Below, in pieces: positions 24,577 to 39,822 of a DNA stretch of 64,000 nucleotides. The notes below the pieces were generated by a model that saw nothing but the letters and a program-made list of their open reading frames with translations, had not been told where the DNA came from and ran no database searches. A program made the position numbers and the translations under genes. Each line of letters starts with the position of its first letter. The first letter of the stretch is position 1. The stretch lies in the NCBI RefSeq assembly GCF_900221005.1, contig NZ_OBQI01000003.1, forward strand, positions 496,001 to 560,000, in the 5' to 3' direction. Source of the DNA: Blastococcus aggregatus (GTDB lineage: Bacteria > Actinomycetota > Actinomycetes > Mycobacteriales > Geodermatophilaceae).

Positions 24577-25608
24577 TCAGGCAGGCGCCGAGGCCAGCTG
24601 CCGGTCGCCCTCGGGGGCCTGGTCCCCCACCAGCGGGAAGTGGCAGGCCACGAACTGGCCCTGCGCCACCTCGCGCATCTGCGGCTCCTCGGCCGCGCAC
24701 AGGTCCGCCGCCCGGGGGCAGCGGGTCCGGAAGCGGCAGCCCGACGGCGGGTTGACCGGCGAGGGGAGCTCCCCCACCAGTCCGGCGTCGCTGTGCTTGG
24801 CGTCCGGGTCCGGCTCCGGGATGGAGGCCAGCAGCGCAGCCGTGTACGGGTGCGCCGGACCGGCGTAGAGCTGGTCCGAGGGTGCGACCTCGCAGATCTT
24901 GCCGAGGTACATCACCGCGACGCGGTCGCTGATGTTCTTCACCACGGCCAGGTCGTGGGCGATGAAGACCATCGTGAGGTCGAACTCGGCCTTCAGGTCC
25001 TCGAGCAGGTTGAGGATCTGTGCCTGCACCGAGACGTCCAGCGCGGACACCGGCTCGTCGCAGATCAGCACCTCCGGCCGCATGATCAGCGAGCGCGCGA
25101 TCGACACCCGCTGGCACTGACCACCGGACATCTCGTGCGGCCGGCGCGAGCCGGCCCGCTCCGGATCGAGCCCGACCTCGGCCAGCATCTGGTCGACCCG
25201 TGGGTCGCTGCTGTCCTTGCCCTCCCAGATCGACAGGCCCTCGGCGACGATGTCCTTGACCCGGCGCCGCGGGTTCAGCGACGAGATCGGGTCCTGGTAG
25301 ATCATCTGCAGCTTGGTGCGGCTGCGCCGGAGCTCGTCGGCACTGAGCGAGCTCAGGTCCTTCTCGTCGAAGATGATCTTGCCGCTGGTCGGCCGGGGCG
25401 CCTGCATGATCGCCCGCCCGGTCGTCGACTTGCCGCAGCCGGACTCGCCGACCAGGCCCAGCGTCTCGCCCTTGGCGATGTCGAAGCTGATGCCCGAGAC
25501 GGCGTGGACCTTCTGCCCCTTCTCCAGCGGGAACTCGACCACCAGACCCTCGACACGCAGGACGATGTCGTCCCGGTCCCGGAGGTGGGCGGTACCGGTG
25601 CCGGCCAT
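24577..25608 (-). CDS. dppF: Peptide ABC transporter ATPase, DppF/OppF type
   Basis: A 343-residue ABC ATPase with Walker A GESGCGKST, Q-loop YQDPISSLNPR, signature MSGGQCQRV and Walker B VLICDEPVSALD. A C-terminal oligopeptide-transporter domain carries the spaced cysteines (GCRFRTRC, LC, ACHFP) that in this family can hold an Fe-S cluster. ATG 25608 overlaps the stop of the partner ATPase gene (TGATG). It is the last gene of the operon SBP-B-C-D-F and would pair with DppD to power peptide uptake. Confidence 0.92.
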   Translation of the reverse strand: MAGTGTAHLRDRDDIVLRVEGLVVEFPLEKGQKVHAVSGISFDIAKGETLGLVGESGCGKSTTGRAIMQAPRPTSGKIIFDEKDLSSLSADELRRSRTKLQMIYQDPISSLNPRRRVKDIVAEGLSIWEGKDSSDPRVDQMLAEVGLDPERAGSRRPHEMSGGQCQRVSIARSLIMRPEVLICDEPVSALDVSVQAQILNLLEDLKAEFDLTMVFIAHDLAVVKNISDRVAVMYLGKICEVAPSDQLYAGPAHPYTAALLASIPEPDPDAKHSDAGLVGELPSPVNPPSGCRFRTRCPRAADLCAAEEPQMREVAQGQFVACHFPLVGDQAPEGDRQLASAPA

Positions 25609-26708
25609 CAGGCTGCTCCTGCCGTTGCGAGAACCGTGCTGTCCAGGGGGGTGCCGGCAGCGGTGCGCCCGGCGGCCACGTTGCGCGCGAGCGCTTCCTG
25701 GCCGGCGGTCGTCCCGACCGGGAAGTGGCACGCGGCCTCGTGCCCGGCGGCGTGCGGTGCGAGCACCGGCGTCTCCGTCAGGCACTTGTCCTGCGCGTAG
25801 TTGCACCGGGGGGCGAAGGGGCACCCCGCCGGCGGGTCCACCAGGTCCGGCGGCCGGCCCGGGATGGCCTGCAGCCTGGAGTGGCTCGGCTGGTGCAGCC
25901 GCGGGATCGACCGCAGCAGCCCCTCGGTGTACGGGTGCCGGTTGCGGGCGAACAGCTCACGGGTGGGAGCCCGCTCGACGACCCGGCCCGCGTACATGAC
26001 GGCGATCTCGTCCGCTCGCCCGGCGACCACGCCGAGGTCGTGGGTGATGATGATCAGCCCCATGTTGCGCTGGGTCTGCTGGGACTCCAGCAGGTCCAGG
26101 ATCTGGCGCTGGACGGTGACGTCCAGCGCCGTCGTCGGCTCGTCGGCGACCAGGAGCTTGGGGCTGCAGGCCAGCGCGATCGCGATGGTGACGCGCTGCC
26201 GCATGCCGCCGGAGAGCTGGTGGGGGTACTCCCCCAGCCGACGCTCCGCCGCCGGGATGCCGACGGACTTGAGCAGCTCGACGGCGTGCGCCTTGGCGAC
26301 CTTGCCCTTCTCGTTCAGGTGGATCCCGAGGGACTCGGTGATCTGCTCGCCGATCTTGGTGACCGGGTTGAGCGAGGTCATCGGGTCCTGCAGGACCATC
26401 GCCATCTCGGCGCCCCAGATGGTGCGCATCTCCTTGTTCTTCATGGTCGTGAGCTCACGACCCTCGAAGCGCACGGAGCCCTCGCGGATGGTGTTCGCCT
26501 TGGGCAGCAGGTTCATGATCGACCGCGAGAGCACGGTCTTGCCCGAACCGGACTCACCGACGATGCCGAGCGTCTTGCCCCGGTCCACCCGGAGCGAGAC
26601 GCCGTCCACCGCCTTGACGATCCCGCGCGGGGTGTCGAAGTAGGTGCGCAGGTCGTCGACCTCGAGCAGCGGCTCGTTCGCCCGGCCTTCCTTCTGCGAG
26701 GCGGTCAC
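25608..26708 (-). CDS. dppD: Peptide ABC transporter ATPase, DppD/OppD type
   Basis: A 366-residue ABC ATPase. Walker A is GESGSGKT, the Q-loop LQDPMTSLNP, the signature LSGGMRQRV and Walker B LLVADEPTTALD. The C-terminal Cys-rich segment (GCPFAPRC, C, ACHFP) is characteristic of Opp/Dpp ATPases. GTG 26708 overlaps the stop of the permease gene (GTGA), showing translational coupling. It works with the F-type ATPase at the cytoplasmic face of the membrane. Confidence 0.92.
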   Translation of the reverse strand: MTASQKEGRANEPLLEVDDLRTYFDTPRGIVKAVDGVSLRVDRGKTLGIVGESGSGKTVLSRSIMNLLPKANTIREGSVRFEGRELTTMKNKEMRTIWGAEMAMVLQDPMTSLNPVTKIGEQITESLGIHLNEKGKVAKAHAVELLKSVGIPAAERRLGEYPHQLSGGMRQRVTIAIALACSPKLLVADEPTTALDVTVQRQILDLLESQQTQRNMGLIIITHDLGVVAGRADEIAVMYAGRVVERAPTRELFARNRHPYTEGLLRSIPRLHQPSHSRLQAIPGRPPDLVDPPAGCPFAPRCNYAQDKCLTETPVLAPHAAGHEAACHFPVGTTAGQEALARNVAAGRTAAGTPLDSTVLATAGAA

Positions 26709-27637
26709 AGGTTGCTCCCTCGGACATCGAAGCGGGTGCGGAGCGAGTCGCCGACCAGGTTCAGCGACAGCACCGTGAGGAACATGGCGATGGAGGGGAT
26801 GAGCACGACGTGCGGGGCCTCGCTGAGGTACCGCTTGCCGTCGAAGATCATCCCGCCCCAGGTGGGTGCCGGCTGCTGGACGCTGAGCCCGAGGAAGGCC
26901 AGCGTCCCTTCCAGGACGATCACCACACCCATCGCGACCAGGCCGAACGCGGCCACCGGGAGCACCACGTTGGGCAGGATCTCCCGGGCGAGCACCCGGG
27001 AGTTCTTCGCACCCATCGTCCGGGAGGCCCGGACGAACTCCCGCTCGGCGACGGCGAGCGTCGTCGCCCGCGCCACACGGGTGTAGATCGGGATCGACAG
27101 GAAGCCGACGATCAGCGAGATCACGACCAGGCTCCGGCCGACGAACGCCAGCAGCACGAGCAGCAGGACGAGCGCCGGGAACGCCAGGATGATGTTGATG
27201 ATCGTCATCAGGACGGTCTCGAGCTTGCCGCGGAAGAAGCCCGCGATGATGCCGATGAAGCCGCCGACGACCATGCCGATGGCGACGGCCGTGACGCTGA
27301 TGGTCACCGAGACGCGCGCACCGTGGACCAGGCGGGCCAGGGTGTCGCGGCCCAGGCCGTCGGTGCCCAGCCAGTGCTCGGGGCCGGGGTAGGCCAGCTT
27401 GTTGAGCACGTCGGGGACCAGCGGGTCCTTGACCGGCAGGAGGTTGGCGAAGACGGCGCAGATGAGCACCACCACCAACCAGACCGTGGCCAGCCAGAAG
27501 GTGACGCCGAAGCCGCGCTTGCGCTTCTTACCGGGTGCCGCGGCGGCCGAGGTCTCCGCGATCAGCCCGTCGGCAGGCGCCAGCTCGGAGGTGACCCCGG
27601 GATGGGGGGCACCGAGATTGGGCGCGGGCGTGCTCAT
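26705..27637 (-). CDS. dppC: Peptide ABC transporter permease, DppC/OppC type
   Basis: A 310-residue BPD_transp_1 permease with an N-terminal helix (about residues 45-67), then LGTDGLGRDTLARLVHGARVS and five further helices. The EAA loop is in ASRTMGAKNSRVLAREILPN. The end SLNLVGDSLRTRFDVRG is typical of the C subunit. It forms the membrane channel together with DppB, which begins 42 bases upstream on the same strand. Confidence 0.92.
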   Translation of the reverse strand: MSTPAPNLGAPHPGVTSELAPADGLIAETSAAAAPGKKRKRGFGVTFWLATVWLVVVLICAVFANLLPVKDPLVPDVLNKLAYPGPEHWLGTDGLGRDTLARLVHGARVSVTISVTAVAIGMVVGGFIGIIAGFFRGKLETVLMTIINIILAFPALVLLLVLLAFVGRSLVVISLIVGFLSIPIYTRVARATTLAVAEREFVRASRTMGAKNSRVLAREILPNVVLPVAAFGLVAMGVVIVLEGTLAFLGLSVQQPAPTWGGMIFDGKRYLSEAPHVVLIPSIAMFLTVLSLNLVGDSLRTRFDVRGSNL

Positions 27638-27679
27638 GCTTCTCCCTGTGCGTTCGATCCGTGCACGGTGGGCGGGGGA

Positions 27680-28639
27680 TCAGACTCGTGCCGCAGAGCG
27701 TCCATGCGAGATCCTCGGGTCCAGGTACGAGTAAAGGATGTCGACGGTGAAGTTCACGACGACGTAGCTGACGGCGATGACCAGCGCGACGCCCTGCACC
27801 ATGAGGAGGTCGCGCACCAGCACGGCCTCCAGCAGGAGACGACCGACGCCGGGCACTGCGAACAGGGTCTCGATGACGACCGACCCACCGATGATCGCTC
27901 CGACCTGCACGCCGGCCACCGTCAACAGCGAGAACGACGACGGGCGCAGTGCGTGCCGGAAGAGGATCCGCCGGTTGGAGACGCCCTTCACCCGGGCCAT
28001 GGTCACGAAGTCCTGCTGCAACGTCGCGATCATGTCCGTGCGGAGGAGCCGGGTGTAGACCGCCATCTCGGCGATCGCCAGCGACAGCGCCGGGAGCAAC
28101 GCCGACCGGAGGTTCTGCACCGGGTTGTCGGTGAAGTTCACCCAGCCGGTCGCGGGCAGGACGCCCAGCCACACGGCGAAGATCAGGATGAGCAGGATCG
28201 CCACCATGAAGTTCGGCACCGCGAGGAGGCCGAAGCTGGTGCTGCTGATCACCTTGTCGGTGCGGGTGCCGGCCCGGTAGGCCGACAGCATCCCGACCGG
28301 GATGGCGATCGCCAGGGCGATGACGATGGCGAGGAGCCCGATCTCCGCGGTGACGGGCAGTCGCTCGACGATCGCCTGGCTGACCGGCTCGTTCGTCCGG
28401 TAGGAGCGACCGAAGTCGCCGGTCAGCGCGTCCCCGATCCAGTGCAGGTAGCGCACCGGGAGGGGGTCGTCGAGGCTCAGCTCGGCGCGGACGGCCGCGA
28501 TCGCCTCGGGCGTCGCGTTCTCCGCACCCAGGATCTGCAGCGCCGGGTCACCGGGCAGCAGGCTGGTCATCAGGAAGGTCAGGATCGACACCGCCAGCAG
28601 GGTGGCGATGAGCGACGGGAGCCTGCGTAGGACATACAC
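27680..28639 (-). CDS. dppB: Peptide ABC transporter permease, DppB/OppB type
   Basis: A 319-residue permease with six helices. The N-terminal LRRLPSLIATLLAVSILTFLM helix, the LPGDPA motif, the long periplasm-facing loop, the EAA loop (ARVKGVSNRRILFRHALRPS) and the final YLDPRI are diagnostic of DppB/OppB. The GTG start at 28639 is 6 bases after the stop of solute-binding protein 1, so that copy is the operon's own receptor. Confidence 0.92.
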   Translation of the reverse strand: MYVLRRLPSLIATLLAVSILTFLMTSLLPGDPALQILGAENATPEAIAAVRAELSLDDPLPVRYLHWIGDALTGDFGRSYRTNEPVSQAIVERLPVTAEIGLLAIVIALAIAIPVGMLSAYRAGTRTDKVISSTSFGLLAVPNFMVAILLILIFAVWLGVLPATGWVNFTDNPVQNLRSALLPALSLAIAEMAVYTRLLRTDMIATLQQDFVTMARVKGVSNRRILFRHALRPSSFSLLTVAGVQVGAIIGGSVVIETLFAVPGVGRLLLEAVLVRDLLMVQGVALVIAVSYVVVNFTVDILYSYLDPRISHGRSAARV

Positions 28640-28645
28640 GGGCGT

Positions 28646-30322
28646 CTACTCCACTCGCCAGACGTGGCCCCACATGGCGGTGGAGGCGTTGGCACCGTTG
28701 CCCTCGGTGTCGTCCGGGAACGTCCAGCCGTCCAGGTTGCGGATGGCCTCCTTCGTGGCGAGCACCGTCAGGGTGCCGCCGCTGAAGGCGTTGGGGACGT
28801 TCTCGTTGAGGATCAGGCCGATCTCCTCGACCGCCGCCTTGCGGGCGTCGACCTCGGTCGTCGTGCGCAGGATCTCCAGCTGCTCGTCGATCTCCGGGCT
28901 CTGGAAGGCGGTCATGTTCAGCGGGCCGTCGGTGAAGGCGTCGTCGAAGACCAGGTACGGGTCGCGGTCGGCGCCGACGCGGGTGCAGCCGGTGTCGTAG
29001 TCGCGGGCCAGCATGTCCTGGATCCAGGCGGCCTGCTCGGTCGCCTGCAGCTCGACCTGCGCGCCCAGCGCCTGCCACAGCGCCTGGTAGAGCTGGGAGA
29101 GCTCGTTGAGGCTCGGGTCCGGCGGGCACTGGAACATGAACGACAGCGGGGTGCCGACGGGCTTGCCGTCGCTGCGCTCCGGGTCGTTGACGTAGTCGTC
29201 GTACAGCTCCTGCGCCTTCTCGAGGTCGTAGGCCGGGTAGGACTCGGCGACCTTCTCGGAGTACCAGGCGCTGTCCGGGCTCCAGAACTGCGTCTGCGGC
29301 GGCGTGACGCCGGAACCGCCGAGGACCTCGATCAGGGCCTCCTGGTCCACGGCGTGCACCAGGGCCTGGCGGACGCGGATGTCGTCGAACGGCGCGCGGC
29401 TGGTGTTGAGCGTCAGTCCACCGGAGTTGCTGCCCAGGTGCTCGAAGTTGTTGACGCCCTCGAGGTCGCGGGCCCGGATGACGGTGCTCTGGCGGAGCGA
29501 CTGCATGACGTCGATGTCACCGCTCTGCAGCGAGGCCAGGCGGGTGTCCTCGTCGGGGATCGGGCGGAACACGATCTCGTCGAGGTAGGGCTTGCCCTCC
29601 TGCCAGTAGTTCGCGTTCTTCTCGACCACCAGGCGGCTGTCGCGCTGCCAGCTGACGAACGTGAAGGGGCCGGTGCCGACCGGGTTCGCACCGGCGTCGG
29701 GGCCGGCGGCGGCCGCGGCGGTCGGCGAGAACGGCCAGCCGGAGGCGCCCACGAGGAGGTCGGGGAAGGCGGCGTTGGTCTCGGCCAGCTTGTAGACGAC
29801 GGTGAGGTCGTCGACGACGTCCAGCGAGGTCACCTGGGCCAGCTGGGCGGCGAGCCGGGAGCCGGTGCCCTTCAGGTAGGTGTCGAAGATCGTCTTCAGC
29901 GCCTCGGCGTTGAGCGGGGTGCCGTCGTGGAACGTCACGTCGGGACGCAGCGTCAGCGTCCACTCCGTGAGGTCCTCGTTCGGCTCGAGCGACTCGGCGA
30001 GGTAGGGGCGGACCTCGCCGTCGGCGGAGCGCTGCATCAGCGGGTCGTAGATCGCGTACGCGACGTTGAGGCCGGGCTGGTTGAACGTGCCCTCGTGGGG
30101 CATCCAGCTGTTCGTCTCGGCCTCGAGCCCGACGGTGATCGAGCCACCCTCGACCGGGTCACCGGCCTCGACGGCTTCGCTCACCGCGCCGGCCTCGGCG
30201 TCCCCGTTCCCGTCCTCGGAGCCGCCACCGCAGGCGGCGCTGCCGAGCAGGAGACCAACGAGGCCCACGGAAGCGAGGGCCCGCTTCCACGGACCTCTCA
30301 TCGGGCGCCGATGTACTCGCAT
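28646..30322 (-). CDS. dppA: Peptide-binding lipoprotein 1 (SBP family 5), head of the dpp operon
   Basis: A 558-residue extracellular solute-binding protein of family 5. A signal peptide (PWKRALASVGLVGLLLG) ends at lipobox Cys31, so it is a membrane-anchored lipoprotein. Family marks are VAYAIYDPLM, FHDGTPLNAEALK, NPVGTGPFTFVSWQR and FRPIPDEDTRLASLQSGDID. ATG 30322 follows AAGGAG. With this start the lipobox Cys is at 31, exactly as in copies 2-5. It is the only copy directly linked to the permease genes (6 bases to dppB). The ligand-side segment reads ADRDPYLVFDDAF. A CRP-type dyad lies 106 bp upstream. Confidence 0.93.
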   Translation of the reverse strand: MRVHRRPMRGPWKRALASVGLVGLLLGSAACGGGSEDGNGDAEAGAVSEAVEAGDPVEGGSITVGLEAETNSWMPHEGTFNQPGLNVAYAIYDPLMQRSADGEVRPYLAESLEPNEDLTEWTLTLRPDVTFHDGTPLNAEALKTIFDTYLKGTGSRLAAQLAQVTSLDVVDDLTVVYKLAETNAAFPDLLVGASGWPFSPTAAAAAGPDAGANPVGTGPFTFVSWQRDSRLVVEKNANYWQEGKPYLDEIVFRPIPDEDTRLASLQSGDIDVMQSLRQSTVIRARDLEGVNNFEHLGSNSGGLTLNTSRAPFDDIRVRQALVHAVDQEALIEVLGGSGVTPPQTQFWSPDSAWYSEKVAESYPAYDLEKAQELYDDYVNDPERSDGKPVGTPLSFMFQCPPDPSLNELSQLYQALWQALGAQVELQATEQAAWIQDMLARDYDTGCTRVGADRDPYLVFDDAFTDGPLNMTAFQSPEIDEQLEILRTTTEVDARKAAVEEIGLILNENVPNAFSGGTLTVLATKEAIRNLDGWTFPDDTEGNGANASTAMWGHVWRVE

Positions 30323-30427
30323 GTAATTACTCCTTGAGATCTTGCGTGCCGGCACAGCGACAGGCCGGCGAACGGCGCGTCGATGTGCGAGCGCCCACAG
30401 CGCGTGCTCGGAGTCTGTCTTACGGGA

Positions 30428-30441
30428 GTGGGCTGCGTCAC
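30428..30441. promoter_or_regulatory. CRP/GlxR-type dyad before peptide-binding protein 1
   Basis: GTGg-GCTGCG-TCAC, one mismatch to GTGA-N6-TCAC, 106 bp before the start codon. It is followed (minus strand) by the ACTCCGA block shared by the six control regions. Confidence 0.5.
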
Positions 30442-30474
30442 TAGGCGGCTCGCCACTCTCGTCGGGTGTCGAAC

Positions 30475-30491
30475 TATGCGATGCGCACAAC
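30475..30491. promoter_or_regulatory. Second shared element, copy 1
   Basis: TATGCGATGCGCACAAC, nearly the same as the element before copy 6 (TATGCGGACCGCACAAC) and lying at the same distance (33-34 bases) beyond the CRP-type dyad. Confidence 0.35.
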
Positions 30492-30503
30492 GTCCCTGTG
30501 CGC
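30483..30503. terminator. Weak hairpin after peptide-binding protein 2
   Basis: GCGCACA/TGTGCGC with a 7-base loop, 25 bases after the stop of copy 2. It overlaps the second shared element, so it may be regulatory instead. Confidence 0.3.
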
Positions 30504-30527
30504 TCCCGGCGGGGCGCCCGGCCCAGG

Positions 30528-32216
30528 TCACCCGGCCAGCCAGACGTGGCCCCACATCACCTGCGCGCCGGCCGCTCCGTTGCCCGTCGTCCCGTCCGGG
30601 AAGGTCCAGCCGGCCAGGTTCTTGACCGCCTCGCGCCCTGCCATGACGGTGAGCGTCCCGCCGCTGAAGGTGTTGGGCACGTTCTCGTTGACCACCAGCC
30701 CGATCTCCTCGACGGCCGCCTTGCGCGTGGCGAGGTCGGTGGTGGTCCGCAGGATGTCGAGCTGCGCGTCGATCTCCGGGCTCTGGAAGGCCGTCATGTT
30801 CAGCGGCCCCTCGGTGAAGGCGGCGTCGAACACGATGAACGGGTCGCTGTCGGCGCCCACCCGGGTGCATCCGGTGTCGTAGTCGCGGGCCAGCATCTTC
30901 TGGATCCAGGTCGCCTGCTCCACCTGCTCGAGCTCGACCTGGGCGCCGAGGGCGCCGTAGAGCGACTGCACCAGCTGGGCCACCTCGTTGAGGCTGGGAT
31001 CCGGCGGGCAGCTGTAGGTGAAGGACAGGTGCGTCCCCACCGGCAGGCCGTCGGAACGGTCCGGGTCGTCGACGTAGTCGTCGTACAGCTCCTGGGCCTT
31101 CTCGACGTCGTACGTCGGATAGGCCTCGGCCACCTCCTCCGACCAGTACGGCGAGTCCTCGCTGAAGAACTGCGTGGTCGGAGGTGTGACCCCTGCTCCG
31201 CCGAGGACCTCGATGATCGCCTCCTGGTCGAGCGCGTGGGCCAGGGCCTGCCGGACCCGGACGTCGTCGAACGGCGGCTTGCTCGTGTTGACCGTACCGC
31301 CGCCGGAGTTGCTGCCGAGGTGCTCGTAGTTGTCGATGCCGTCGAGGTCGCGCGCGCGGATCACCGTGCTCTGCCGCAGCGACTGCATCACGTCGACGTC
31401 ACCGCTGCGCAGGGACGCCAGGCGGGTGTCCTCGTCGGGGATCGGCCGGAAGGTGATCCGGTCCAGGTGCGGCAGCCCCGGCCGCCAGTAGTCCGCGTTC
31501 TTCTCCACGACCAGCTGGCTGTCGCGCTGCCAGCTGACGAACCGGAACGGGCCGGTGCCCACCGGGCGGGCACCGGCGTCCTCGCCGGCCGCGGCTGCGG
31601 CCGTCGGCGAGAACGGCCACCCCGGGGAGGAGATCAGCAGGACGGGGAACGCGGCGTTGGCCTCCACCAGGCGGTAGACCACGGTGAGCTCGTCGACGAC
31701 GTCCAGCGAGGTGACCTCGTCGAGCGAGGCGGCCGTGTTGGTCCCCGGCGCCGTCAGGTACTCGTCGAAGATCGTCTTCAGCGCCTGCGCGTCCAGCGGC
31801 GTGCCGTCGTGGAACCGCACGTCCGGCCGCAGCGTCAGCGTCCACTCGGTGAGGTCGGCGTTCGGCTGCATCGACTCGGCCAGGTACGGCTCGACGTCGC
31901 CGTCCTCCGTCCGGTGCATGAGCGGGTCGTAGAGGGCGTAGGCGACGTTGACGCCCGGCTGGTTGAACGTCCCCTTGCCGGGGAGCCAGCTGCTGGTCTC
32001 GGCCTCCAGCCCGACGACGATCTCGCCTCCGTCGACCGGCTCGCCCTGCTCGGAGATGTCGACGATCGCGCCTTCCTGCGGCTCCTCGGCGCCACCACCA
32101 CCCCCGCCGTCGTCCCCGCTGCCGCAGGCGGCGCCGCCGAGCAGCAGACCCACCAGCCCTGCGGAGACGGCCGCCCGCTTCCACGAGCCCGCCGTCGGAC
32201 GCCGATCTCCCCGCAT
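30528..32216 (-). CDS. Peptide-binding lipoprotein 2 (orphan SBP family 5)
   Basis: A 562-residue paralogue of the dpp receptor. The signal peptide ends at lipobox Cys31 (LLLGGAAC), followed by a Gly-rich, acidic linker. The core FRPIPDEDTRLASLRSGDVDVMQSLRQSTVIRA is shared with the other copies. The segment that in copy 1 reads ADRDPYLVFDDAF is ADSDPFIVFDAAF here. ATG 32216 follows GGGGAG with 7-base spacing. No permease gene follows, because the next gene is copy 1 after a 205-bp control region. I infer that it delivers other peptides to the same DppBCDF channel. Confidence 0.9.
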   Translation of the reverse strand: MRGDRRPTAGSWKRAAVSAGLVGLLLGGAACGSGDDGGGGGGAEEPQEGAIVDISEQGEPVDGGEIVVGLEAETSSWLPGKGTFNQPGVNVAYALYDPLMHRTEDGDVEPYLAESMQPNADLTEWTLTLRPDVRFHDGTPLDAQALKTIFDEYLTAPGTNTAASLDEVTSLDVVDELTVVYRLVEANAAFPVLLISSPGWPFSPTAAAAAGEDAGARPVGTGPFRFVSWQRDSQLVVEKNADYWRPGLPHLDRITFRPIPDEDTRLASLRSGDVDVMQSLRQSTVIRARDLDGIDNYEHLGSNSGGGTVNTSKPPFDDVRVRQALAHALDQEAIIEVLGGAGVTPPTTQFFSEDSPYWSEEVAEAYPTYDVEKAQELYDDYVDDPDRSDGLPVGTHLSFTYSCPPDPSLNEVAQLVQSLYGALGAQVELEQVEQATWIQKMLARDYDTGCTRVGADSDPFIVFDAAFTEGPLNMTAFQSPEIDAQLDILRTTTDLATRKAAVEEIGLVVNENVPNTFSGGTLTVMAGREAVKNLAGWTFPDGTTGNGAAGAQVMWGHVWLAG

Positions 32217-32325: not shown

Positions 32326-32339
32326 GTGAGCTGCGTCAC
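32326..32339. promoter_or_regulatory. CRP/GlxR-type dyad before peptide-binding protein 2
   Basis: GTGA-GCTGCG-TCAC, a perfect match to the half-site pair, 110 bp before the start codon. Confidence 0.6.
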
Positions 32340-32364
32340 TAGATGTCGTCGCGGCATCACCGAC

Positions 32365-32380
32365 GGTGCGTCCGCACAGC
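32365..32380. promoter_or_regulatory. Second shared element, copy 2
   Basis: GGTGCGTCCGCACAGC, with inner palindrome GTGCG-TC-CGCAC, 25 bases beyond the CRP-type dyad and abutting the terminator of copy 3. Confidence 0.3.
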
Positions 32381-32417
32381 ACGACGGCCCGGGCGAAGAT
32401 CTCGCCCGGGCCGTCGT
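32381..32417. terminator. Terminator of peptide-binding protein 3
   Basis: A 16-bp perfect stem (ACGACGGCCCGGGCGA) with a 5-base loop, 15 bases after the stop of copy 3. The stem is almost identical to that after copy 5 (36161-36199). Confidence 0.75.
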
Positions 32418-32432
32418 TGCTGTGCGGTTGGA

Positions 32433-34112
32433 TCAGTCGGTCACCCAGACGTGGGCCCACATGGTGTCGGCGTTCGCCGCACCGGTGCCCTTGGTGGTGC
32501 TGTCGGGGAACGTCCAGCCGTCGATGTTCTTCACGGCGTCGCGACCGGCCAGGACGGTGAGCGTGCCACCGACGTAGGTGTGGATGGCCTCCTCGTTCAG
32601 GACCAGCCCGATCTCCTCGATCGCCGCCTTGCGCTCGTCGATGTCACGGGTGGCCTTGAGGTTCTCCAGCTGCTCGTCGATCCGCGGGTCCTGGTAGGCG
32701 CTCATGTTGAGCGGACCCTCGGTGAAGGCGCCGTCCAGGAGGACGTAGGGGTCGCCGTCACCACCCACACGGGTGCAGCCCGTCTCGTAGTCCCGGCCCA
32801 GCATCCGCTGGATCCAGGCCGCCTGCTCCAGCTGCTCGATCTCCACCTCGGCACCGATACCGCTCCAGAACGACTGGATCAGCTGCGCCAGCTCGTTGAG
32901 GCTCGGGTCCGGCGGGCAGCGGAACGTGAACGACAAGGGCGTGCCGACCGGCTTGCCGTCCGAGCGGTCCGGGTCGTTGATGTACTCCTCGTACAGCTCC
33001 TGGGCCTTCTCGACGTCGTACTCCGGGTAGGCGTCGGCCACCTTCTCCGACCAGTACGGGCTGTCCTCGCTGAAGAACTGGGTCTGCGCGGGGGTGATGC
33101 CGGCGCCGCCCAGCGTGGCGATCAGCGACTCCTGGTCCAGCGCGTGCGCCAGCGCCCGGCGGACTCGGACGTCGTCGAACGGCGCGATGCTGGTGTTCAG
33201 CGTCGTCGCACCGGCGTTGCTGCCCAGGTTCTCGTAGTTGCTGATGCCGTCGAGTTCGCGGGCGCGGACGACGGTGCTCTGCCGCAGCGACTGCATGACG
33301 TCGATGTCACCGCTCTGCAGCGAGGCCAGGCGGGTGTCCTCGTCCGGGATCGGCCGGAAGGTGATCTCGTCGAGGTGCGGGAGGCCCGGCTGCCAGTAGT
33401 CGGGGTTCTTCTTCACGACCAGCCGGCTGTCGCGCTGCCAGCTCTCGAACACGAAGGGACCGGTGCCCACCGGGTTCGCGCCGGCATCCGGGCCGGCGGC
33501 GGCGGCGGCGGTCGGCGAGAACGGCCAGCCGGCGGCGGTGATCAGCGCGTCGGGGAATGAGGCGTTGGTCGCCGCCAGGTTGTAGACGACGGTGTACTCG
33601 TCGACGACGTCCATCGACTCCACCTCGGCCAGCGAGGCGGCCAGCCGCGACGTCGGCGCCTTGAGGTAGTCGTCGAAGACCGTCTTCAGCGCCTCGGCGT
33701 TGAGCGGGGTGCCGTCGTGGAAGTTGATGCCCTCGCGCAGCGTCAGCGTGTACTCGGTGAGGTCCTCGTTGGCCTCGAGGGACTCGGCGAGGTAGGGCTG
33801 CACGGAGCCGTCCTCCGCCCGCTGCATCAGCGGGTCGTAGATCGCGTGCGCGATCGTCAGCCCCGGCTGGTTGAACGTTCCCTCGCTCGGCAGCCAGCTG
33901 TTGGTCTCGGCCTCCAGGCCGATGGTGATCGAGCCGCCCTCGACCGGATCGCCGGCCTCGCCGCCGTCGCTCTGCGCGCCGGGCTCGACGCCTCCGTTCC
34001 CGTCACCGTCTCCACCGCCGCAGGCGGCGGTGCCCAGCAGGACACCCACCAGCCCTGCAGCGGCGAGTGCCCGTGTCCACGGGCCTCTCGACGGGCGCCG
34101 AAGTCCTCGCAT
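32433..34112 (-). CDS. Peptide-binding lipoprotein 3 (orphan SBP family 5)
   Basis: A 559-residue paralogue with lipobox Cys31 (VLLGTAAC) and ATG 34112 after GGGGAG. The core FRPIPDEDTRLASLQSGDIDVMQSLRQSTVVRA is intact. The variable C-lobe segment is GDGDPYVLLDGAF and the end is GTGAANADTMWAHVW. It also differs in having EGINFHDGTPLN. It is transcribed alone between two control regions, with its own terminator. A ligand different from that of copies 1 and 2 is likely but not derivable from sequence. Confidence 0.9.
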   Translation of the reverse strand: MRGLRRPSRGPWTRALAAAGLVGVLLGTAACGGGDGDGNGGVEPGAQSDGGEAGDPVEGGSITIGLEAETNSWLPSEGTFNQPGLTIAHAIYDPLMQRAEDGSVQPYLAESLEANEDLTEYTLTLREGINFHDGTPLNAEALKTVFDDYLKAPTSRLAASLAEVESMDVVDEYTVVYNLAATNASFPDALITAAGWPFSPTAAAAAGPDAGANPVGTGPFVFESWQRDSRLVVKKNPDYWQPGLPHLDEITFRPIPDEDTRLASLQSGDIDVMQSLRQSTVVRARELDGISNYENLGSNAGATTLNTSIAPFDDVRVRRALAHALDQESLIATLGGAGITPAQTQFFSEDSPYWSEKVADAYPEYDVEKAQELYEEYINDPDRSDGKPVGTPLSFTFRCPPDPSLNELAQLIQSFWSGIGAEVEIEQLEQAAWIQRMLGRDYETGCTRVGGDGDPYVLLDGAFTEGPLNMSAYQDPRIDEQLENLKATRDIDERKAAIEEIGLVLNEEAIHTYVGGTLTVLAGRDAVKNIDGWTFPDSTTKGTGAANADTMWAHVWVTD

Positions 34113-34218
34113 GTGTTTTCTCCCCGAACGTGTGCGTGCCGACGCGACGACGGACGGCCGCATGGCCGTCCGTCAGCGCGCGCGCTCCGTGAGCGCGGTC
34201 GGAGTGTGCACTACGTCG

Positions 34219-34232
34219 GTGAGCCACGTCAC
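34219..34232. promoter_or_regulatory. CRP/GlxR-type dyad before peptide-binding protein 3
   Basis: GTGA-GCCACG-TCAC, 107 bp before the start codon. On the minus strand a further GTGA half-site lies about 20 bases upstream. Confidence 0.6.
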
Positions 34233-34269
34233 TAGTTGTTGTCGCTCTATCACGATCGGATGCGCCGCG

Positions 34270-34302
34270 CGGTGGCCCGGGAGGGTCTCCCCCGGGCCAC
34301 CG
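34270..34302. terminator. Terminator of peptide-binding protein 4
   Basis: CGGTGGCCCGGG pairs with CCCGGGCCACCG around a 9-base centre, 13 bases after the stop of copy 4. Confidence 0.65.
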
Positions 34303-34315
34303 AGCGGCGCTCAGA

Positions 34316-35992
34316 TCAGTCGGCCAGCCAGACGAACCCCCACATGGTCGTGGCGCCCGGCACCCCGTCACCCTTCGTGCCGTCCGGGAACTCCCAGCCG
34401 TCGACGTTCTTGACCGCCTCCTGCACGGCGACATCGGTGAGCGTGTAACCGGTGAAGACGTTCGGCACGTTCTCGCTGATGTCCATGCTGATGTCCGCCA
34501 CCGCCGCCTTGCGCTCGTCGAGGTCAGCGGTGGTCCGCAGCGTCTCCAGCCCCTCGTCGATCGTCGGGCTGGTGTACCCGGTGAAGTTGAGCGGACCGGG
34601 CGTGAACGCGTTCTTCAGCGTGATGTACGGATCCGCCTCGTCGCCGACCCGCCAGCACTGCACCTCGTAGTCCTTCGCCAGCCCGTTCTGGATGTGGGCC
34701 GCCTGCTCCACCGTGTTGAGCTTGACGTCCATGCCCAGCGCGCTCCAGAACGACTGGTAGAGCTGGGAGAGCTCGTTGAGGCTCGGGTCGGGCGGGCAGT
34801 TGTAGGTGAAGGAGATGTCGGTCCCGACCGGCTGGCCGTCGGAGCGCTGCGGGTCGTTGATGTACTCGTCGTAGAGCTCCTGTGCCTTCTCCACGTCGTA
34901 GGTCGGGAAGGCGTCGGCGGCCTCCTCGGAGTAGAACGGGCTGTCCGGGCTGAAGTACTGGGTGGCCTCCGGGGTCAGCCCGGTGCCGCCGATCACGTCG
35001 ATGAGCGCCGGCTGGTCCATGCCGTACGCCATCGCCTGCCGCACCCGCAGGTCGTCGAACGGCGCCTTGGTGGTGTTGAAGATCGAGCCACCACTGTTGT
35101 TGCCCAGGTACTCGTAGTTGTCCACCCCGTCGATGTCGCGGGCCCGGCTGACCGTGCCCTGCCGCAGGGTCTGCATGGCGTCGATGTCACCGCTCTGCAG
35201 GCTCGCCAGCCGGGTGTCCTCGTCCGGGATCGGCCGGAAGGTGACCTTGTCCAGGTGGGGCAGCCCCTCCTGCCAGTAGTTGTCGTTCTTCTCCACGACC
35301 AGGTTGCTGTCCCGCTGCCAGCTGACGAACGTGAAGGGACCGGTCCCCACCGGGTTGGCACCGGCGTCCTCGCCGAACTCCTCCGCCGCGGTGGGCGAGA
35401 ACGGCCAGCCCGCCGCGCCGGTCAGCACGGACGGGAACGCGGCGTTGGTCTTGTTGAGGGTGTACGTCACCGCGAGGTCGTCCACGACGTCCAGAGAGGT
35501 GACGTCCGCCAGCGAGTTCTTCACGTTCGACGTCGGTGCCATCAGGTACTTGTCGAAGATCGTCTTGAGCGCCTCACCGTTGAGCGGGGTGCCGTCGTGG
35601 AACTGCACGTCCGGCCGCAGCGTGAGCGTCCAGGCGGTGAAGTCCTCGTTGGGCTCCATCGACTCGGCGAGGTACGGCTTGATCTCACCGTCCTCCGTCC
35701 GCTTCATCAGCGGGTCGTAGATGGCGTAGGCGACAGTGGTGCCGGCGTTGGCGCCCCCGTACTCCCCCGGTAGCCAACTGTTGGTCTCGGCCTCCAGGCC
35801 GACCGTGATCTCGCCGCCCTCGACCGGCTCACCCTGCTCCGAGATCCCACCCCCGCCCGCCGAGGACGGGTCGCTCCCCTCGGAGTCGTCGCCACCCCCG
35901 CAGGCGGCCGTCCCCAGCAGCAGACCCACGAGGCCCGCGGCAGCGAGCGTGCGCCCCCACGGCCCTCCCCTCAGACGCCGATGTCCTCGCAT
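34316..35992 (-). CDS. Peptide-binding lipoprotein 4 (orphan SBP family 5)
   Basis: A 558-residue paralogue with lipobox Cys31. It is one of the more divergent copies: the mature start reads SWLPGEYGGANAGTTVAYAIYDPLM instead of FNQPG, AEEFGEDAG replaces the AAAAG run, and the variable segment is DEADPYITLKNAF. ATG 35992 is used because GAGAGG stands 6 bases before it and it places the lipobox at 31; an in-frame GTG lies at 35998. Shared changes such as SQYFxPDSPFYSEE and LMKR relate it to copy 6. Confidence 0.9.
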   Translation of the reverse strand: MRGHRRLRGGPWGRTLAAAGLVGLLLGTAACGGGDDSEGSDPSSAGGGGISEQGEPVEGGEITVGLEAETNSWLPGEYGGANAGTTVAYAIYDPLMKRTEDGEIKPYLAESMEPNEDFTAWTLTLRPDVQFHDGTPLNGEALKTIFDKYLMAPTSNVKNSLADVTSLDVVDDLAVTYTLNKTNAAFPSVLTGAAGWPFSPTAAEEFGEDAGANPVGTGPFTFVSWQRDSNLVVEKNDNYWQEGLPHLDKVTFRPIPDEDTRLASLQSGDIDAMQTLRQGTVSRARDIDGVDNYEYLGNNSGGSIFNTTKAPFDDLRVRQAMAYGMDQPALIDVIGGTGLTPEATQYFSPDSPFYSEEAADAFPTYDVEKAQELYDEYINDPQRSDGQPVGTDISFTYNCPPDPSLNELSQLYQSFWSALGMDVKLNTVEQAAHIQNGLAKDYEVQCWRVGDEADPYITLKNAFTPGPLNFTGYTSPTIDEGLETLRTTADLDERKAAVADISMDISENVPNVFTGYTLTDVAVQEAVKNVDGWEFPDGTKGDGVPGATTMWGFVWLAD

Positions 35993-36090
35993 GTGCACCC
36001 TCTCGACCCTGTCGCACGGTCCGGCGGGAGCCGCTTCGGTCCCCGCCGGGCACGCTCCTGGAGCGCGCCCGTCGGAGTGTTGCGCACAAC

Positions 36091-36104
36091 GTGATCCGCG
36101 TCAC
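36091..36104. promoter_or_regulatory. CRP/GlxR-type dyad before peptide-binding protein 4
   Basis: GTGA-TCCGCG-TCAC, 99 bp before the start codon. Confidence 0.6.
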
Positions 36105-36160
36105 TACAATCGGTCACAGTTACCCAACCGAGACCTTGGGCGACGACGGGCCGGGGAACG

Positions 36161-36199
36161 CACGACGGCCCGGGCGTCGTGCTCGCCCGGGCCGTCGTG
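36161..36199. terminator. Terminator of peptide-binding protein 5
   Basis: A 16-bp perfect stem (CACGACGGCCCGGGCG) with a 7-base loop, 17 bases after the stop of copy 5. Confidence 0.75.
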
Positions 36200-36216
36200 A
36201 GGTGCTGCCGATCAGG

Positions 36217-37893
36217 TCAGTCGGTGACCCAGACGTGGCCCCACATGATCTGCGACGAGGCCGCGCCGTTGCCCGGCGTGCCCTCGGGGAAGGTCCAGCC
36301 GTCCAGGTTCTTCACCGCGTCGCGGGTGGCCATGACGGTCAGCGTGCCTCCGCTGAAGGTGTTGGGGACCTGCTCGTTCAGGACCTCACCGATGGCCTCG
36401 ACGGCGGCCTTGCGGGCCTCCGTGTCGACCGTGGTCTTGAGGACGTCGAGCTGCTCGTCGATCTCCGGGCTCTGGAACGCCGTCATGTTCAGCGGACCCT
36501 CGGTGAAGGCCTGCGAGAACACGATGTAGGGGTCGCGGTCCGCGCCCACACGGGTGCAGCCCATCTCGTAGTCACGGGCGAGCATGTCCTGGATCCAGGC
36601 GGCCTGCTCGGTCTGCTGCAGCGTGACCTCGGCACCCAGCGCGTTGAAGAACGCCTGGTAGAGCTGCGAGAGCTCGTTGAGGCTCGGGTCCGGCGGGCAC
36701 TGGAAGGTGAAGGAGATGGGCGAACCCACGGCCTTGCCGTCCGAGCGCTCCGGGTCCTCGACGTAGGAGTCGTAGAGCTCCTGCGCCTTCGCCATGTCGT
36801 ACGTCGGGTAGGACTCCTCGAGCGCCTCCGAGTAGTACGGGCTGTCGGGGCTGAAGAACTGCGTCTGCTTCGGGGTCACGCCCGAACCACCGAGCACCTC
36901 GATGAGCGCGTCCTGGTCCATGGCGTACGCCATGGCCTGACGGACGCGGACGTCGTCGAACGGCGCCTTGCTGGTGTTCATCGTCGTACCGCCGGAGTTG
37001 CTGCCGAGGTACTCGAAGTTGCTCACGCCGTCGAGGTCGCGGGCGCGCACGACGGTGCTCTGCCGGAGCGACTGCATGACGTCGATGTCACCGCTCTGCA
37101 GGGACGCCAGGCGGGTGTCCTCGTCGGGGATCGGCCGGAACACGATCTCGTCGAGGTAGGGCTTGCCCTCCTGCCAGTAGTTCGCGTTCTTCTTGACGAC
37201 CAGCCGGCTGTCGCGCTGCCAGCTCTCGAACACGAACGGGCCGGTGCCGACCGGGTTCGCACCGGCGTCGGCACCCGCCGCAGCAGCGGCGGTCGGCGAG
37301 AACGGCCAGCCGGCAGCGGTGACGAGCTCGTCCGGGAACGCCGCGTTCGGCTCGGTGAGCTGGTAGGTGACGGTGAGGTCGTCGACGACGTCCAGCGAGG
37401 ACACCTCGGCGAGGCTCGCGGCCACCCGGGAACCGGGGACCTTGAGGTAGTCGTCGAAGATCGTCTTCAGCGCCTGCGCGTCCAGCGCGGTGCCGTCGTG
37501 GAACTGCACCTCGGGGCGGAGCTTCAGCGTCCACGCGGTGAGCTCGGCGTTGGGCTCCATCGACTCGGCCAGGTAGGGCTCGACGGCGCCGTCCGCGGTG
37601 CGCTGCATCAGCGGGTCGTAGATCGCGTAGGCGACGTTCGTCCCGGGCTGGTTGAACGTGCCCTCGCTCGGCAGCCAGCTGTTGGTCTCGGCCTCGAGCC
37701 CGACGGTGATCGAACCGCCGGTGACCGGGTCGCCGGCCTCGCCGACGTCGGAGACCGCGCCGGCCTCGGCGTCCCCGTTGCTGTCCTCGTCCCCGCTGCC
37801 GCAGGCTGCGCTGCCCAGCAGGAGACCCACGAGGCCCGCGGAGACGAGGGCCCGCTTCCACGGCCCTCTCATCGGGCGCCGGTGTTGCTGCAT
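36217..37893 (-). CDS. Peptide-binding lipoprotein 5 (orphan SBP family 5)
   Basis: A 558-residue paralogue, the closest relative of copy 1. It has the same PMRGPWKRAL signal-peptide start, lipobox Cys31, NANYWQEGKPYLDEIVFRPIPDED, and the variable segment ADRDPYIVFSQAF. ATG 37893 follows AGGAG, also as in copy 1. Between bases 37045 and 37220 its DNA is nearly the same as copy 1 (29461-29640), pointing to recent duplication or gene conversion. Its CRP-type dyad is degenerate, unlike those of copies 2, 3, 4 and 6, so its expression may differ. Confidence 0.9.
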   Translation of the reverse strand: MQQHRRPMRGPWKRALVSAGLVGLLLGSAACGSGDEDSNGDAEAGAVSDVGEAGDPVTGGSITVGLEAETNSWLPSEGTFNQPGTNVAYAIYDPLMQRTADGAVEPYLAESMEPNAELTAWTLKLRPEVQFHDGTALDAQALKTIFDDYLKVPGSRVAASLAEVSSLDVVDDLTVTYQLTEPNAAFPDELVTAAGWPFSPTAAAAAGADAGANPVGTGPFVFESWQRDSRLVVKKNANYWQEGKPYLDEIVFRPIPDEDTRLASLQSGDIDVMQSLRQSTVVRARDLDGVSNFEYLGSNSGGTTMNTSKAPFDDVRVRQAMAYAMDQDALIEVLGGSGVTPKQTQFFSPDSPYYSEALEESYPTYDMAKAQELYDSYVEDPERSDGKAVGSPISFTFQCPPDPSLNELSQLYQAFFNALGAEVTLQQTEQAAWIQDMLARDYEMGCTRVGADRDPYIVFSQAFTEGPLNMTAFQSPEIDEQLDVLKTTVDTEARKAAVEAIGEVLNEQVPNTFSGGTLTVMATRDAVKNLDGWTFPEGTPGNGAASSQIMWGHVWVTD

Positions 37894-38000
37894 GTCTTTA
37901 CTCCTCGACCACGTGTGCGTGTCACCGCGACGGCGAGCCGGGAGGCAGGCGCGTCGGGGCGCGGGCGCGCGAAGCGCCTGGTCGAAGTGTCCCTGGGAGT

Positions 38001-38014
38001 GTGCGGAGAGTCAT
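38001..38014. promoter_or_regulatory. Degenerate CRP-type dyad before peptide-binding protein 5
   Basis: GTGc-GGAGAG-TCAt at the position of the dyads in the other copies, 108 bp before the start codon, with one mismatch in each half-site. Confidence 0.3.
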
Positions 38015-38049
38015 TGGGCGGCTCGCCACCGTCACGGACGGTTACCCCC

Positions 38050-38065
38050 GGCGGTCCGCACAGCG
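38050..38065. promoter_or_regulatory. Second shared element, copy 5
   Basis: GGCGGTCCGCACAGCG, containing GCGG-T-CCGC, 35 bases beyond the CRP-type position. Confidence 0.3.
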
Positions 38066-38094
38066 GGGTCGGTGTGCTAATCCGCGCACGCCAG

Positions 38095-38126
38095 GGCGGC
38101 CCGGGCGAGGTTCCGCCCGGACCGCC
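38095..38126. terminator. Terminator of peptide-binding protein 6
   Basis: GGCGGCCCGGGCG pairs with CGCCCGGACCGCC with one mismatch and a 6-base loop, 16 bases after the stop of copy 6. Confidence 0.65.
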
Positions 38127-38142
38127 GTGGTGTGTCAGGCGG

Positions 38143-39822
38143 TTACTCGGTCGTCCAGACGTGGCCCCACATGGCCGTGGCGTCGGGCGTGCCGTTGCCC
38201 TCGGCGCCGTCAGGGAAGACCCAGCCGTCGACGTTCTTCACGACGTCCCGCACCGCGATGACCGTCAGCGTGCCGCCGGTGTACGTGACGGGCACCTGCT
38301 CGGCCAGCACCATGCTGATCGCCTCGGCGGCGGCCTTGCGCTCCTCGACGTCCGTCGTGGTGCGCATGATCGCCAGGTTCTCGTCGATCACCGGGTCGGT
38401 GAACTTGGTGACGTTCGGGATGCCGGGGGTGAAGGACCGGAAGAACACGTAGTACGGGTCACGGGCGGCGCCGTGCCGGGTGCACCCGGCGTCGTAGTCC
38501 CCGGCGATGACCTGCTGGGTGTAGGCCGACTGCTCCACCTGCTCCAGCTCGACCTGCATGCCCAGCGCGTTCCAGAACGACTGGTACAGCTGGGAGAGCT
38601 CGTTCAGGCTCGGGTCCGGCGGGCAGGTGTAGGTGAAGGAGATGTCCTCGCCGACCGCCTTGCCGTCGCTGCGCGCCGGGTCGTTCTTGTACTCGTCGTA
38701 CAGCTTCTGGGCCTCCTCGGGGTCGTTCGTCGGCCACTCGTCGGCGACCTTCTCCGAGTAGTACGGGTCGTTGGGTCCGAAGAACTGGGTGGACGGCGGG
38801 GTGAGCCCGGTGCCACCCAGGACCTCGATGAGCGCGTCCTGGTCCAGGGCGAGGGCCATGGCCTTGCGCACCCGCAGGTCGTCGAACGGCGCCTTGCCGG
38901 TGTTGATGTTCGAACCACCGGTGTTGTTGCCGAGGAACTCGTAGTTGTCCACGCCGTCGACCTCGCGGGCCCGCGCCACCGTGCTCTGCCGCAGCGACTG
39001 CAGGGCGTCGATGTCACCGCTCTGCAGGCTCGCCAGTCGGGTGTCCTCGTCGGGGATCGGCCGGAAGGTGATCTTGTCGAGGTGCGGCAGCCCCGGCTGC
39101 CAGTAGTTCTCGTTCTTCTCGACGATCAGCTGGCTGTCCCGCTGCCAGCTGACGAACTTGAAGGGACCGGTGCCGACGGGGTTCGAGCCGGCCTCCTCGC
39201 CGAACTGCGCTGCAGCCGTGGGCGAGAAGGGCCAGCCGGCCGGGTCGGTGAGCAGGTCGGGGAAGGCCGCGTTCGGCGCCTTCAACGTGTAGGTGACCGT
39301 GAGCTCGTCGACGACGTCCAGGGACGTCACGTCGGCGAGGTCGGCCGCGAGCCTGGACCCGGGCGCCTTGAGGTAGGTGTCCCAGATGGTCTTCAGGGCC
39401 TCGCCGTTCAGCGGCGTGCCGTCGTGGAACTGCACGTCCGGGCGCAGCGTGAGCGTCCAGACCGTGAGGTCCTCGTTCGGCTCCATCGACTCGGCCAGGT
39501 AGGGCTCGGGAGAGCCTTCGGAGGTCCGCTTCATCAGCGGGTCGTAGATGGCGTAGGCGACGTTGTAACCGGGGTTGCCGAAGTTGGCCGTTCCGGGCAA
39601 CCAGCTGTTGGTCTCGGCCTCCAGGCCCACGGTGATCTCGCCACCGTCGACCGGGTCACCGGCGTCCGAGGCGTCGACGACCGCGCCCTCCTCGCCGCTG
39701 CCGCTGTCCCCACCGTCAGAACCGCAGGCCGCTGTCGCCATGAGCAGCCCGACGATCCCTGCGGAAGCGACGGCCCGTCCTGTCCGGCGCCACCGTCCCG
39801 CCCAGTGCGAATGTCCGCGCAA
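38143..39822 (-). CDS. Peptide-binding lipoprotein 6 (orphan SBP family 5), probable TTG start
   Basis: A 559-residue paralogue and the most divergent one: the lipobox is MATAAC (Cys33), the mature start is SWLPGTANFGNPGYNVAYAIYDPLM, and the variable segment is AARDPYYVFFRSF followed by TPGIPNVTKF. A GTG at 39831 is in frame but has GAGGG directly abutting it. The TTG at 39822 has GAGGGG eight bases before it and aligns with the ATG-CGA-GGA-CAT start of copy 4. The gene lies next to the PucR-type regulator, 176 bp away on the same strand. Copies 4 and 6 form a subgroup. Confidence 0.87.
   Translation of the reverse strand: MRGHSHWAGRWRRTGRAVASAGIVGLLMATAACGSDGGDSGSGEEGAVVDASDAGDPVDGGEITVGLEAETNSWLPGTANFGNPGYNVAYAIYDPLMKRTSEGSPEPYLAESMEPNEDLTVWTLTLRPDVQFHDGTPLNGEALKTIWDTYLKAPGSRLAADLADVTSLDVVDELTVTYTLKAPNAAFPDLLTDPAGWPFSPTAAAQFGEEAGSNPVGTGPFKFVSWQRDSQLIVEKNENYWQPGLPHLDKITFRPIPDEDTRLASLQSGDIDALQSLRQSTVARAREVDGVDNYEFLGNNTGGSNINTGKAPFDDLRVRKAMALALDQDALIEVLGGTGLTPPSTQFFGPNDPYYSEKVADEWPTNDPEEAQKLYDEYKNDPARSDGKAVGEDISFTYTCPPDPSLNELSQLYQSFWNALGMQVELEQVEQSAYTQQVIAGDYDAGCTRHGAARDPYYVFFRSFTPGIPNVTKFTDPVIDENLAIMRTTTDVEERKAAAEAISMVLAEQVPVTYTGGTLTVIAVRDVVKNVDGWVFPDGAEGNGTPDATAMWGHVWTTE

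Follow-up and report, generated by a model that had tools for sequence, protein, structure and literature searches.

A tandem array of six family-5 binding lipoproteins upstream of a single DppBCDF-type importer in Blastococcus

A 64-kb stretch of the Blastococcus aggregatus genome (the window, whose numbering is used here) carries six genes for family-5 solute-binding proteins (SBPs), all lipoproteins, placed head to tail on the minus strand upstream of one DppBCDF-type importer. The order of transcription is SBP6 to SBP1 (39822 to 28646), followed by genes of the DppB, DppC, DppD and DppF types (28639 to 24577). A first-pass annotation of the same DNA had described six SBP_bac_5 genes together with B, C, D and F at these positions, and all of them were found there on the minus strand. 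SBP1 (28646..30322) is the operon copy and lies 6 nt upstream of dppB. The remaining receptors form cassettes, namely SBP2 (30528..32216; 73% identical to SBP1), SBP3 (32433..34112; 72%), SBP4 (34316..35992; 65%), SBP5 (36217..37893; 80%) and SBP6 (38143..39822; 66%), and the receptor-to-receptor spacers measure about 200–250 nt. All six products exceed the curated PF00496 cut-off (256.6–278.8 bits against 32.4), and the 65–80% identity of copies 2–6 to copy 1 is, as sequence comparison goes, far above chance. Families of 300-nt DNA repeats show six recurrences at a spacing of 1880–1926 nt. The array is not an assembly artefact, since copies 2–6 differ by 20–35% from copy 1 and the array is present in other genomes.

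The products of copies 1–5 are 558, 562, 559, 558 and 558 amino acids long. SBP6 would have 562 residues from a GTG at 39831 or 559 from a TTG at 39822, where the first-pass annotation also ends the array, and the TTG start is preferred because it is better spaced from a GAGGGG box and yields an MRGH start as in some other copies. Read by eye, the lipobox Cys (AAC motif) is residue 31 in copies 1–5, as had been noted earlier, and is aligned with these in copy 6. Much of the receptor chain is invariant among the six copies, and the shared core reported before holds up in the form of FRPIPDEDTRLASL, which is invariant in the window; the ADRDPY-type C-lobe segments also read as originally given. 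A tRNA call at 37239–37318 lies inside SBP5, lacks a full anticodon and was rejected. The importer, likewise on the minus strand, comprises a DppB-type permease (27680..28639; PF00528 and PF19300), a DppC-type permease (26705..27637; PF00528), a DppD-type ATPase (25608..26708; PF00005 and PF08352) and a DppF-type ATPase open frame (24577..25824; PF00005 and PF08352), whose real start is probably nearer 25600 because the open frame overlaps dppD.

The B. aggregatus genome encodes 13 family-5 receptors and five DppB-type permeases (PF19300). Each of these five permeases adjoins its own receptor and C partner, which leaves copies 2–6 without any other partner. Two further receptors of the array subfamily, at C4:272349 and C5:84722, have no permease, giving eight array-subfamily receptors (six plus two dispersed) to one operon permease; an orphan receptor of another subfamily lies at C6:653337. 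It had been proposed that copies 2–6 feed the same DppBCDF, a proposal that separate permeases pairing with them would contradict, and a search of the genome for such permeases found none. That copies 2–6 share the single DppBCDF channel is thus well supported by gene content.

Most of the receptor genes are preceded by a common upstream element. From the aligned upstream regions of 43 copies it was defined as TAGTGAC, 5 nt, YCAC, about 13 nt and ANACTCC, with weak conservation in between. A loose form of this rule finds it in 33 of the 43 copies, 79–135 nt before the start, and in none of three outgroup upstream regions; a strict form finds it in 25, and shuffled upstream regions contain it once in 4300. 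All six window copies have it, on the minus strand: SBP1 (TAGTGACGCAGCCCAC, 30428..30443), SBP2 (TAGTGACGCAGCTCAC, 32326..32341), SBP3 (TAGTGACGTGGCTCAC, 34219..34234), SBP4 (TAGTGACGCGGATCAC, 36091..36106), SBP5 (degenerate; CAATGACTCTCCGCAC, 38001..38016) and SBP6 (TAGTGACGCCCCTCAC, 39930..39945). The exact 16-mer TAGTGACNNNNNTCAC occurs at four sites in the genome, which are those upstream of SBP2, SBP3, SBP4 and SBP6. The half-sites GTGAC and GTCAC mostly keep their symmetry while the middle varies, a pattern such as might be expected of a protein-binding site. Because paralogs descend from a common gene, the conservation of the element counts for less than the tally of copies would imply. 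A consensus scan for sigma-70 promoters gave no hit in 24400–41500. A second palindrome, TGTGCGNNNCGCAT, is exact only before copies 1 and 6 and its loose matches in the window fall below chance (10 against 32), and no claim is made for it.

Stems follow many of the receptor genes. An unbroken stem of at least 12 bp (G-U pairs allowed) lies within 65 nt past the stop codon in 22 of 30 receptor-to-receptor spacers and in none of seven junctions into dppB; 65-nt control stretches inside genes have a median stem of 5–6 bp and a maximum of 17 bp. In the window, minus-strand stems follow SBP6 (38078..38142; 14 bp, z −5.1), SBP5 (36152..36216; 16 bp, z −4.3), SBP4 (34251..34315; 14 bp, z −7.4) and SBP3 (32368..32432; 17 bp, z −10.1), and no significant stem follows SBP2 in the SBP2–SBP1 spacer (z 0.12). 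Scanned for RNA families and riboswitches at Rfam gathering scores, the window, spacers included, gave no match. The stems may end or shield receptor transcripts. If so, copies 3–6 would be separate transcription units and copy 1 would be co-transcribed with the permease, with read-through from copy 2 possible. The idea of self-contained cassettes in the first-pass annotation fits copies 3–6 best, each of which pairs the element, in degenerate form for SBP5, with a strong stem; copy 2 has the element without a significant stem.

To place the array in its lineage, 40 genomes were searched at a threshold of E 1e-100, 23 of them from the genus, that of B. aggregatus included. Matches occur in nine of the 40: six genomes have arrays of four to six copies in a row and three have a single receptor (634–666 bits). 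The array genomes account for six of the 23 Blastococcus genomes, and a seventh carrier, DSM 44205, was found via its permease, its locus (L001) containing five complete copies plus the end of another. An rpoB tree of the 23 genomes joins the six array genomes in one clade with 100% support, DSM 44205 being outside the sample of that tree. Gene order around the array is the same in all seven carriers as far as the loci and a simple gene caller reached; the caller overlooked some genes in some loci, for example the hydrolase in CCUG 61487. Both the search of related genomes and a tree of the copies had been suggested as checks. The tree, built from 43 array and dispersed copies and three outgroup rows, lacks strong support at 21 of 43 inner branches and places five of the six copies in cross-species clades: copies 1, 2 and 6 with 100/100 each, copy 3 with 99/93 and copy 5 with 97/97. 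Copy 4 forms a looser group with dispersed copies, and position 5 of Candidatus B. massiliensis falls outside the copy-5 clade. With five of the positions grouping across species, the six-fold state looks ancestral and is most plausibly dated to before the clade split. A later loss would account for the four-copy arrays of strain TF02-09 and of B. aurantiacus, which the rpoB tree joins as sister taxa (97%).

The copies compared are, by their codon substitutions, under purifying selection: dN/dS is 0.17–0.45 in all 11 pairs, among which each of the six copies is represented, copy 6 by a single pair; a mis-framed DppC pair was excluded. The copy-5 pair with B. massiliensis may not be orthologous, since the massiliensis copy falls outside the copy-5 clade. 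In strain TML/M2B, copy 5 (L072:12972-14646) is broken by a frameshift or stop. Farther afield, 396 actinobacterial genomes gave only receptors of 414–465 bits, in two genomes besides B. aggregatus, among the best candidates of each genome (three at most). One such locus, in another family of the phylum (G194:C2:46270-50031), has two tandem receptors of 443–465 bits and is possibly an independent start of an array.

Comparison with the close relative DSM 44205 in 300-nt bins suggests that cassettes have been rewritten. The dppBCDF bins are 95–99% identical, most of the permease bins 97–99%, apart from one, the flanking enzyme bins mostly 92–99% and the MFS gene 88–92%; among the receptors, SBP6 is 97–98%, SBP1 93–98% and SBP5 an intermediate 86–95% identical. 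SBP4 and SBP3 with their spacers (window 32200–36300) drop to 72–92%, the change being steep next to SBP5 and gradual in the direction of SBP2. Synonymous divergence is 0.39 for copy 3 and 0.37 for copy 4, compared with 0.04 for dppB and 0.10–0.23 for copies 1, 2 and 5, and is little higher against the distant B. massiliensis (0.42 and 0.45). At some ten times the dppB value, it is not accounted for by faster protein evolution alone. In the receptor tree, copy 3 of the window groups with the copies of CCUG 61487 and B. massiliensis (100/99) rather than with the DSM 44205 copy. A cassette replacement in the SBP3–SBP4 region is likely on these patterns. The exceptional dppBCDF bin lies at the start of dppC (window 27410–27700), where identity is 76% and both flanks are 98–99%.

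Mosaic receptors occur at position 1 of the two four-copy arrays. In TF02-09 (L069:12447-14123), a promoter, leader and 3′ flank of the copy-1 type enclose a body of the copy-4 type, a chimera whose body is 83–100% identical per 120-nt window to the unlinked copy of the same strain over most of its length. In B. aurantiacus (L071:6149-7825), the mosaic is finer, with a promoter and ends of the copy-1 type and a body from another copy. Taken together, the identity bins, tree placement and position-1 mosaics suggest that cassettes have been exchanged within arrays and with unlinked copies, and probably between lineages. A bolder proposal, to which we give low odds, is that the array is a recombining receptor repertoire in which promoters and ends stay constant and ligand-binding bodies move between array positions, unlinked copies and other lineages. 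The permease-coupled position 1 could then be re-armed for a new specificity, the channel being left as it is.

Several receptors serving one channel is a principle already known from Pseudomonas aeruginosa, Borrelia and other Pseudomonas loci, several of the last having two or three receptors near one permease. In P. aeruginosa, one DppBCDF is served by the receptors DppA1–A5, of which four are encoded close to the operon and the fifth elsewhere (PMC4206461). Their di- and tripeptide profiles are distinct, and for one of them no ligand was detected (PMC12728205). Like the Blastococcus array, these are paralogous receptors of the same cluster serving one DppBCDF, and the regulator gene PsdR adjoins them as a regulator adjoins the array. 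Unlike the array, the P. aeruginosa set has five receptors and intervening genes, a porin among them; di- or tripeptides are the ligands of four receptors, and DppA1–5 retain a Gly-Asp-Asn motif (PMC12728205). The phylum and the neighbouring genes also differ, as probably does the type of regulator. The first-pass annotation had named Borrelia as the precedent. Borrelia burgdorferi does have several receptors per import system, with five oligopeptide-binding proteins and two heterodimeric permeases (PMC5736914); its receptors, however, take peptides, and P. aeruginosa is the closer and experimentally tested case (PMC4206461, PMC12728205). The nearest relatives found are single-receptor dppBCDF operons in two other Blastococcus genomes, G008 and G021, whose receptors are 52–53% identical over the best segment and which share the receptor-BCDF order; the G008 DppB is 60% identical to that of the array. 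Unlike the array, they have one receptor and no upstream element by the loose rule. The array is genuine and well conserved, and enlarges on an arrangement that is already known. Searches of open-licence papers found no earlier report of it, and new in that literature would be its six uniform cassettes, with an order largely kept throughout a clade of actinobacteria, the recombination of these cassettes and a dipeptide grip that is at least partly missing.

Several of the genes around the array encode acyl-CoA enzymes. Upstream of SBP6 lies a PucR-type regulator (39999..41387, minus strand; PF13556 HTH_30 and PF17853), and divergent from it an acyl-CoA dehydrogenase (41452..42771; PF02770). 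On the other side, also on the plus strand, a single 735-residue open frame (18932..21139; PF00501 and PF12802) combines an N-terminal MarR-type HTH domain with an acyl-CoA ligase. On that side, too, are an acyl-CoA dehydrogenase open stretch with an approximate start (21142..22413; PF00441), a further acyl-CoA dehydrogenase (22486..23598; PF00441) and a dienelactone-hydrolase-family enzyme (23736..24488; PF01738). Close matches to the regulator, the ligase and two dehydrogenases (those at 41452 and 22486) are found in all six array genomes and in none of the 17 other genus genomes, with 48 ligase candidates scored in many of the genomes. The regulator ortholog scores at least 509 bits in the array genomes, and a paralog scores at most 166 bits in all 23. 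After the rpoB tree gave a single clade, this co-occurrence was dropped as independent functional evidence. In G021, which lies outside the clade, the single-receptor relative is followed after dppF by an acyl-CoA dehydrogenase, and this neighbourhood is, on gene order, more independent evidence than co-occurrence within the clade. In another genome, G012, flavin monooxygenase-like and aldehyde dehydrogenase genes lie near a single receptor.

The binding sites of the receptors bear on the ligand. In Escherichia coli DppA, Arg383 holds the carboxyl end of a dipeptide and Asp436 its amino end (PMC12136057). The Arg383 segment is absent in all 42 readable copies, one broken copy being unreadable. 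When residues are counted back from an Asp-Pro common to the rows, the Asp436 place holds Ala in four window copies (1, 2, 5 and 6), as in NikA; copy 3 has Gly there and copy 4 has Asp. The place is acidic in five of the 42 copies (three Asp, two Glu), although the aligner puts a gap at it. The ADRDPY-type segment sits where DppA has its Gly-Asp-Asn dipeptide motif. Among 30 distant family-5 rows, ten, mostly from Pseudomonas, keep the Asp and nine of these also the Arg, so that the pair marks DppA-like receptors. The 42 readable copies and three outgroup rows all have a pair of cysteines, at positions 399 and 446 in copy 1 numbering, together with Arg448; one could guess at a disulfide and a carboxylate anchor.

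Family models leave the two receptors that were run outside the DppA and NikA classes. Copies 1 and 6 score 102.9 and 92.6 bits against the DppA family NF043070 (cut-off 1005) and 157.8 and 153.7 bits against the NikA family TIGR02294 (cut-off 393). The DppB of the array resembles NikBCDE nickel importers in scoring highest against nickel-type models (309 and 278 bits, against 198 for the DppB-type model, all below cut-off). A structure model shows the family-5 receptor fold common to DppA, AppA and OppA. By their entry titles, the ligands of solved structures close to the model range from peptides and glutathione to nickel complexes, opines and sialic acid, and with such varied ligands the fold does not name the ligand. 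The missing Arg383, the doubtful Asp436 and the flanking acyl-CoA genes lead us to propose, with modest confidence, non-peptide organic acids rather than peptides as ligands. Of the peptide permease first annotated here, the family and fold stand; the missing Arg383 segment, the doubtful Asp436 place, the scores of the two copies run under the DppA and NikA cut-offs and the acyl-CoA neighbours weaken the peptide part.

The whole is best explained, with a probability of about 0.65, as a shared importer with a shared switch. Six receptors would have derived by duplication of one receptor gene, all serving one DppBCDF-type importer. The upstream element would be a common promoter or operator turning the receptors on together, and the lipoproteins would take turns docking on the single DppBC channel, widening the import range. 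The ligands would, less surely, be related organic acids passed to the neighbouring acyl-CoA ligase and dehydrogenases, and the six-fold array would be older than the clade split, with cassettes now and then rewritten by recombination. A wider ligand range was also the earlier proposal; that diverged copies have persisted under purifying selection is in keeping with it and does not prove it.

Several findings weigh against parts of this explanation. The element fails the loose rule in 10 of the 43 copies, and of the 23 genome sites that match TAGTGACNNNNNTCAC with at most one mismatch (a control pattern gives 7), the four exact sites and the SBP1 site belong to the array and 18 lie outside it. 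No U-run follows the stems, and a terminator scan gave four hits against 3.3 expected by chance, all of them within genes and the post-stop stems not among them. Two species have only four copies, and one of the six copies in G011 is broken by a frameshift or stop. With regard to the ligand, the residue after the Asp436 place is Asp or Glu in window copies 1–5, so that a one-residue shift would restore the acid; it is this, with the alignment gap, that makes the assignment doubtful. Loss of the Arg/Asp pair is common, 20 of the 30 distant rows lacking both, and does not exclude peptides. For DppC and both ATPases the top-scoring models are oligopeptide ones, with every score below cut-off. Because the carriers form one rpoB clade, co-occurrence with the catabolic genes counts as one event rather than six. 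In G008, the genes called after dppF include no acyl-CoA dehydrogenase.

These ligand-related points would be natural in an ordinary peptide importer like that of P. aeruginosa, whose six Blastococcus counterparts would grip di-, tri- or oligopeptides differently beside acyl-CoA genes that are incidental. The fold common to DppA, AppA and OppA would suit such an importer, as would the precedent that P. aeruginosa receptors of one DppBCDF split di- and tripeptides between them (PMC12728205). It is the strongest of the alternatives and nevertheless doubtful, in that all readable copies lack the Arg383 segment, DppB leans to nickel-type models, the relative outside the clade likewise adjoins an acyl-CoA dehydrogenase, and in the part of the window genes that was scanned no peptidase family scored above cut-off.

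A second possibility is that duplication changes dosage rather than range, with six copies binding one ligand and providing more receptor for a scarce nutrient. The same upstream element in most copies and the large invariant part of the chain would agree with this. Copies serving dosage alone would be expected to be near-identical, however, and the 20–35% differences from copy 1 track orthologous groups across species. In addition, 51 positions are largely fixed within orthologous groups yet differ between them, a count made without a chance control on 35 of the 43 rows, eight having been dropped as hard to place; a truncated row voids counts of invariant positions beyond residue 375. We regard pure dosage as rather improbable. 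That copies 2–6 are decaying duplicates, unexpressed or non-functional, is very improbable: the broken G011 copy and the four-copy species would fit, but all six window copies have open frames, lipoboxes and upstream elements, and dN/dS is well under 1 in every pair.

With a shared importer and turn-taking receptors, the array would be a natural set of six receptors and one channel in which specificity could change without touching the permease, and it would matter more if cassette exchange does alter the ligand range. The seven strains allow natural cassette swaps to be compared. The array would also be a test of how receptors compete for one channel and of how actinobacterial importers gain substrates. 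It advises caution with the labels "dipeptide" or "peptide ABC transporter" in such genomes, which rest on fold and family.

Two other loci of the window deserve mention. A TetR regulator (18259–18876) adjoins an EmrB-type MFS exporter and has a below-cut-off match to ScbR-type autoregulator receptors. Genes for Ku and a LigD-type ligase, an end-joining pair, lie adjacent at 53613–56103.

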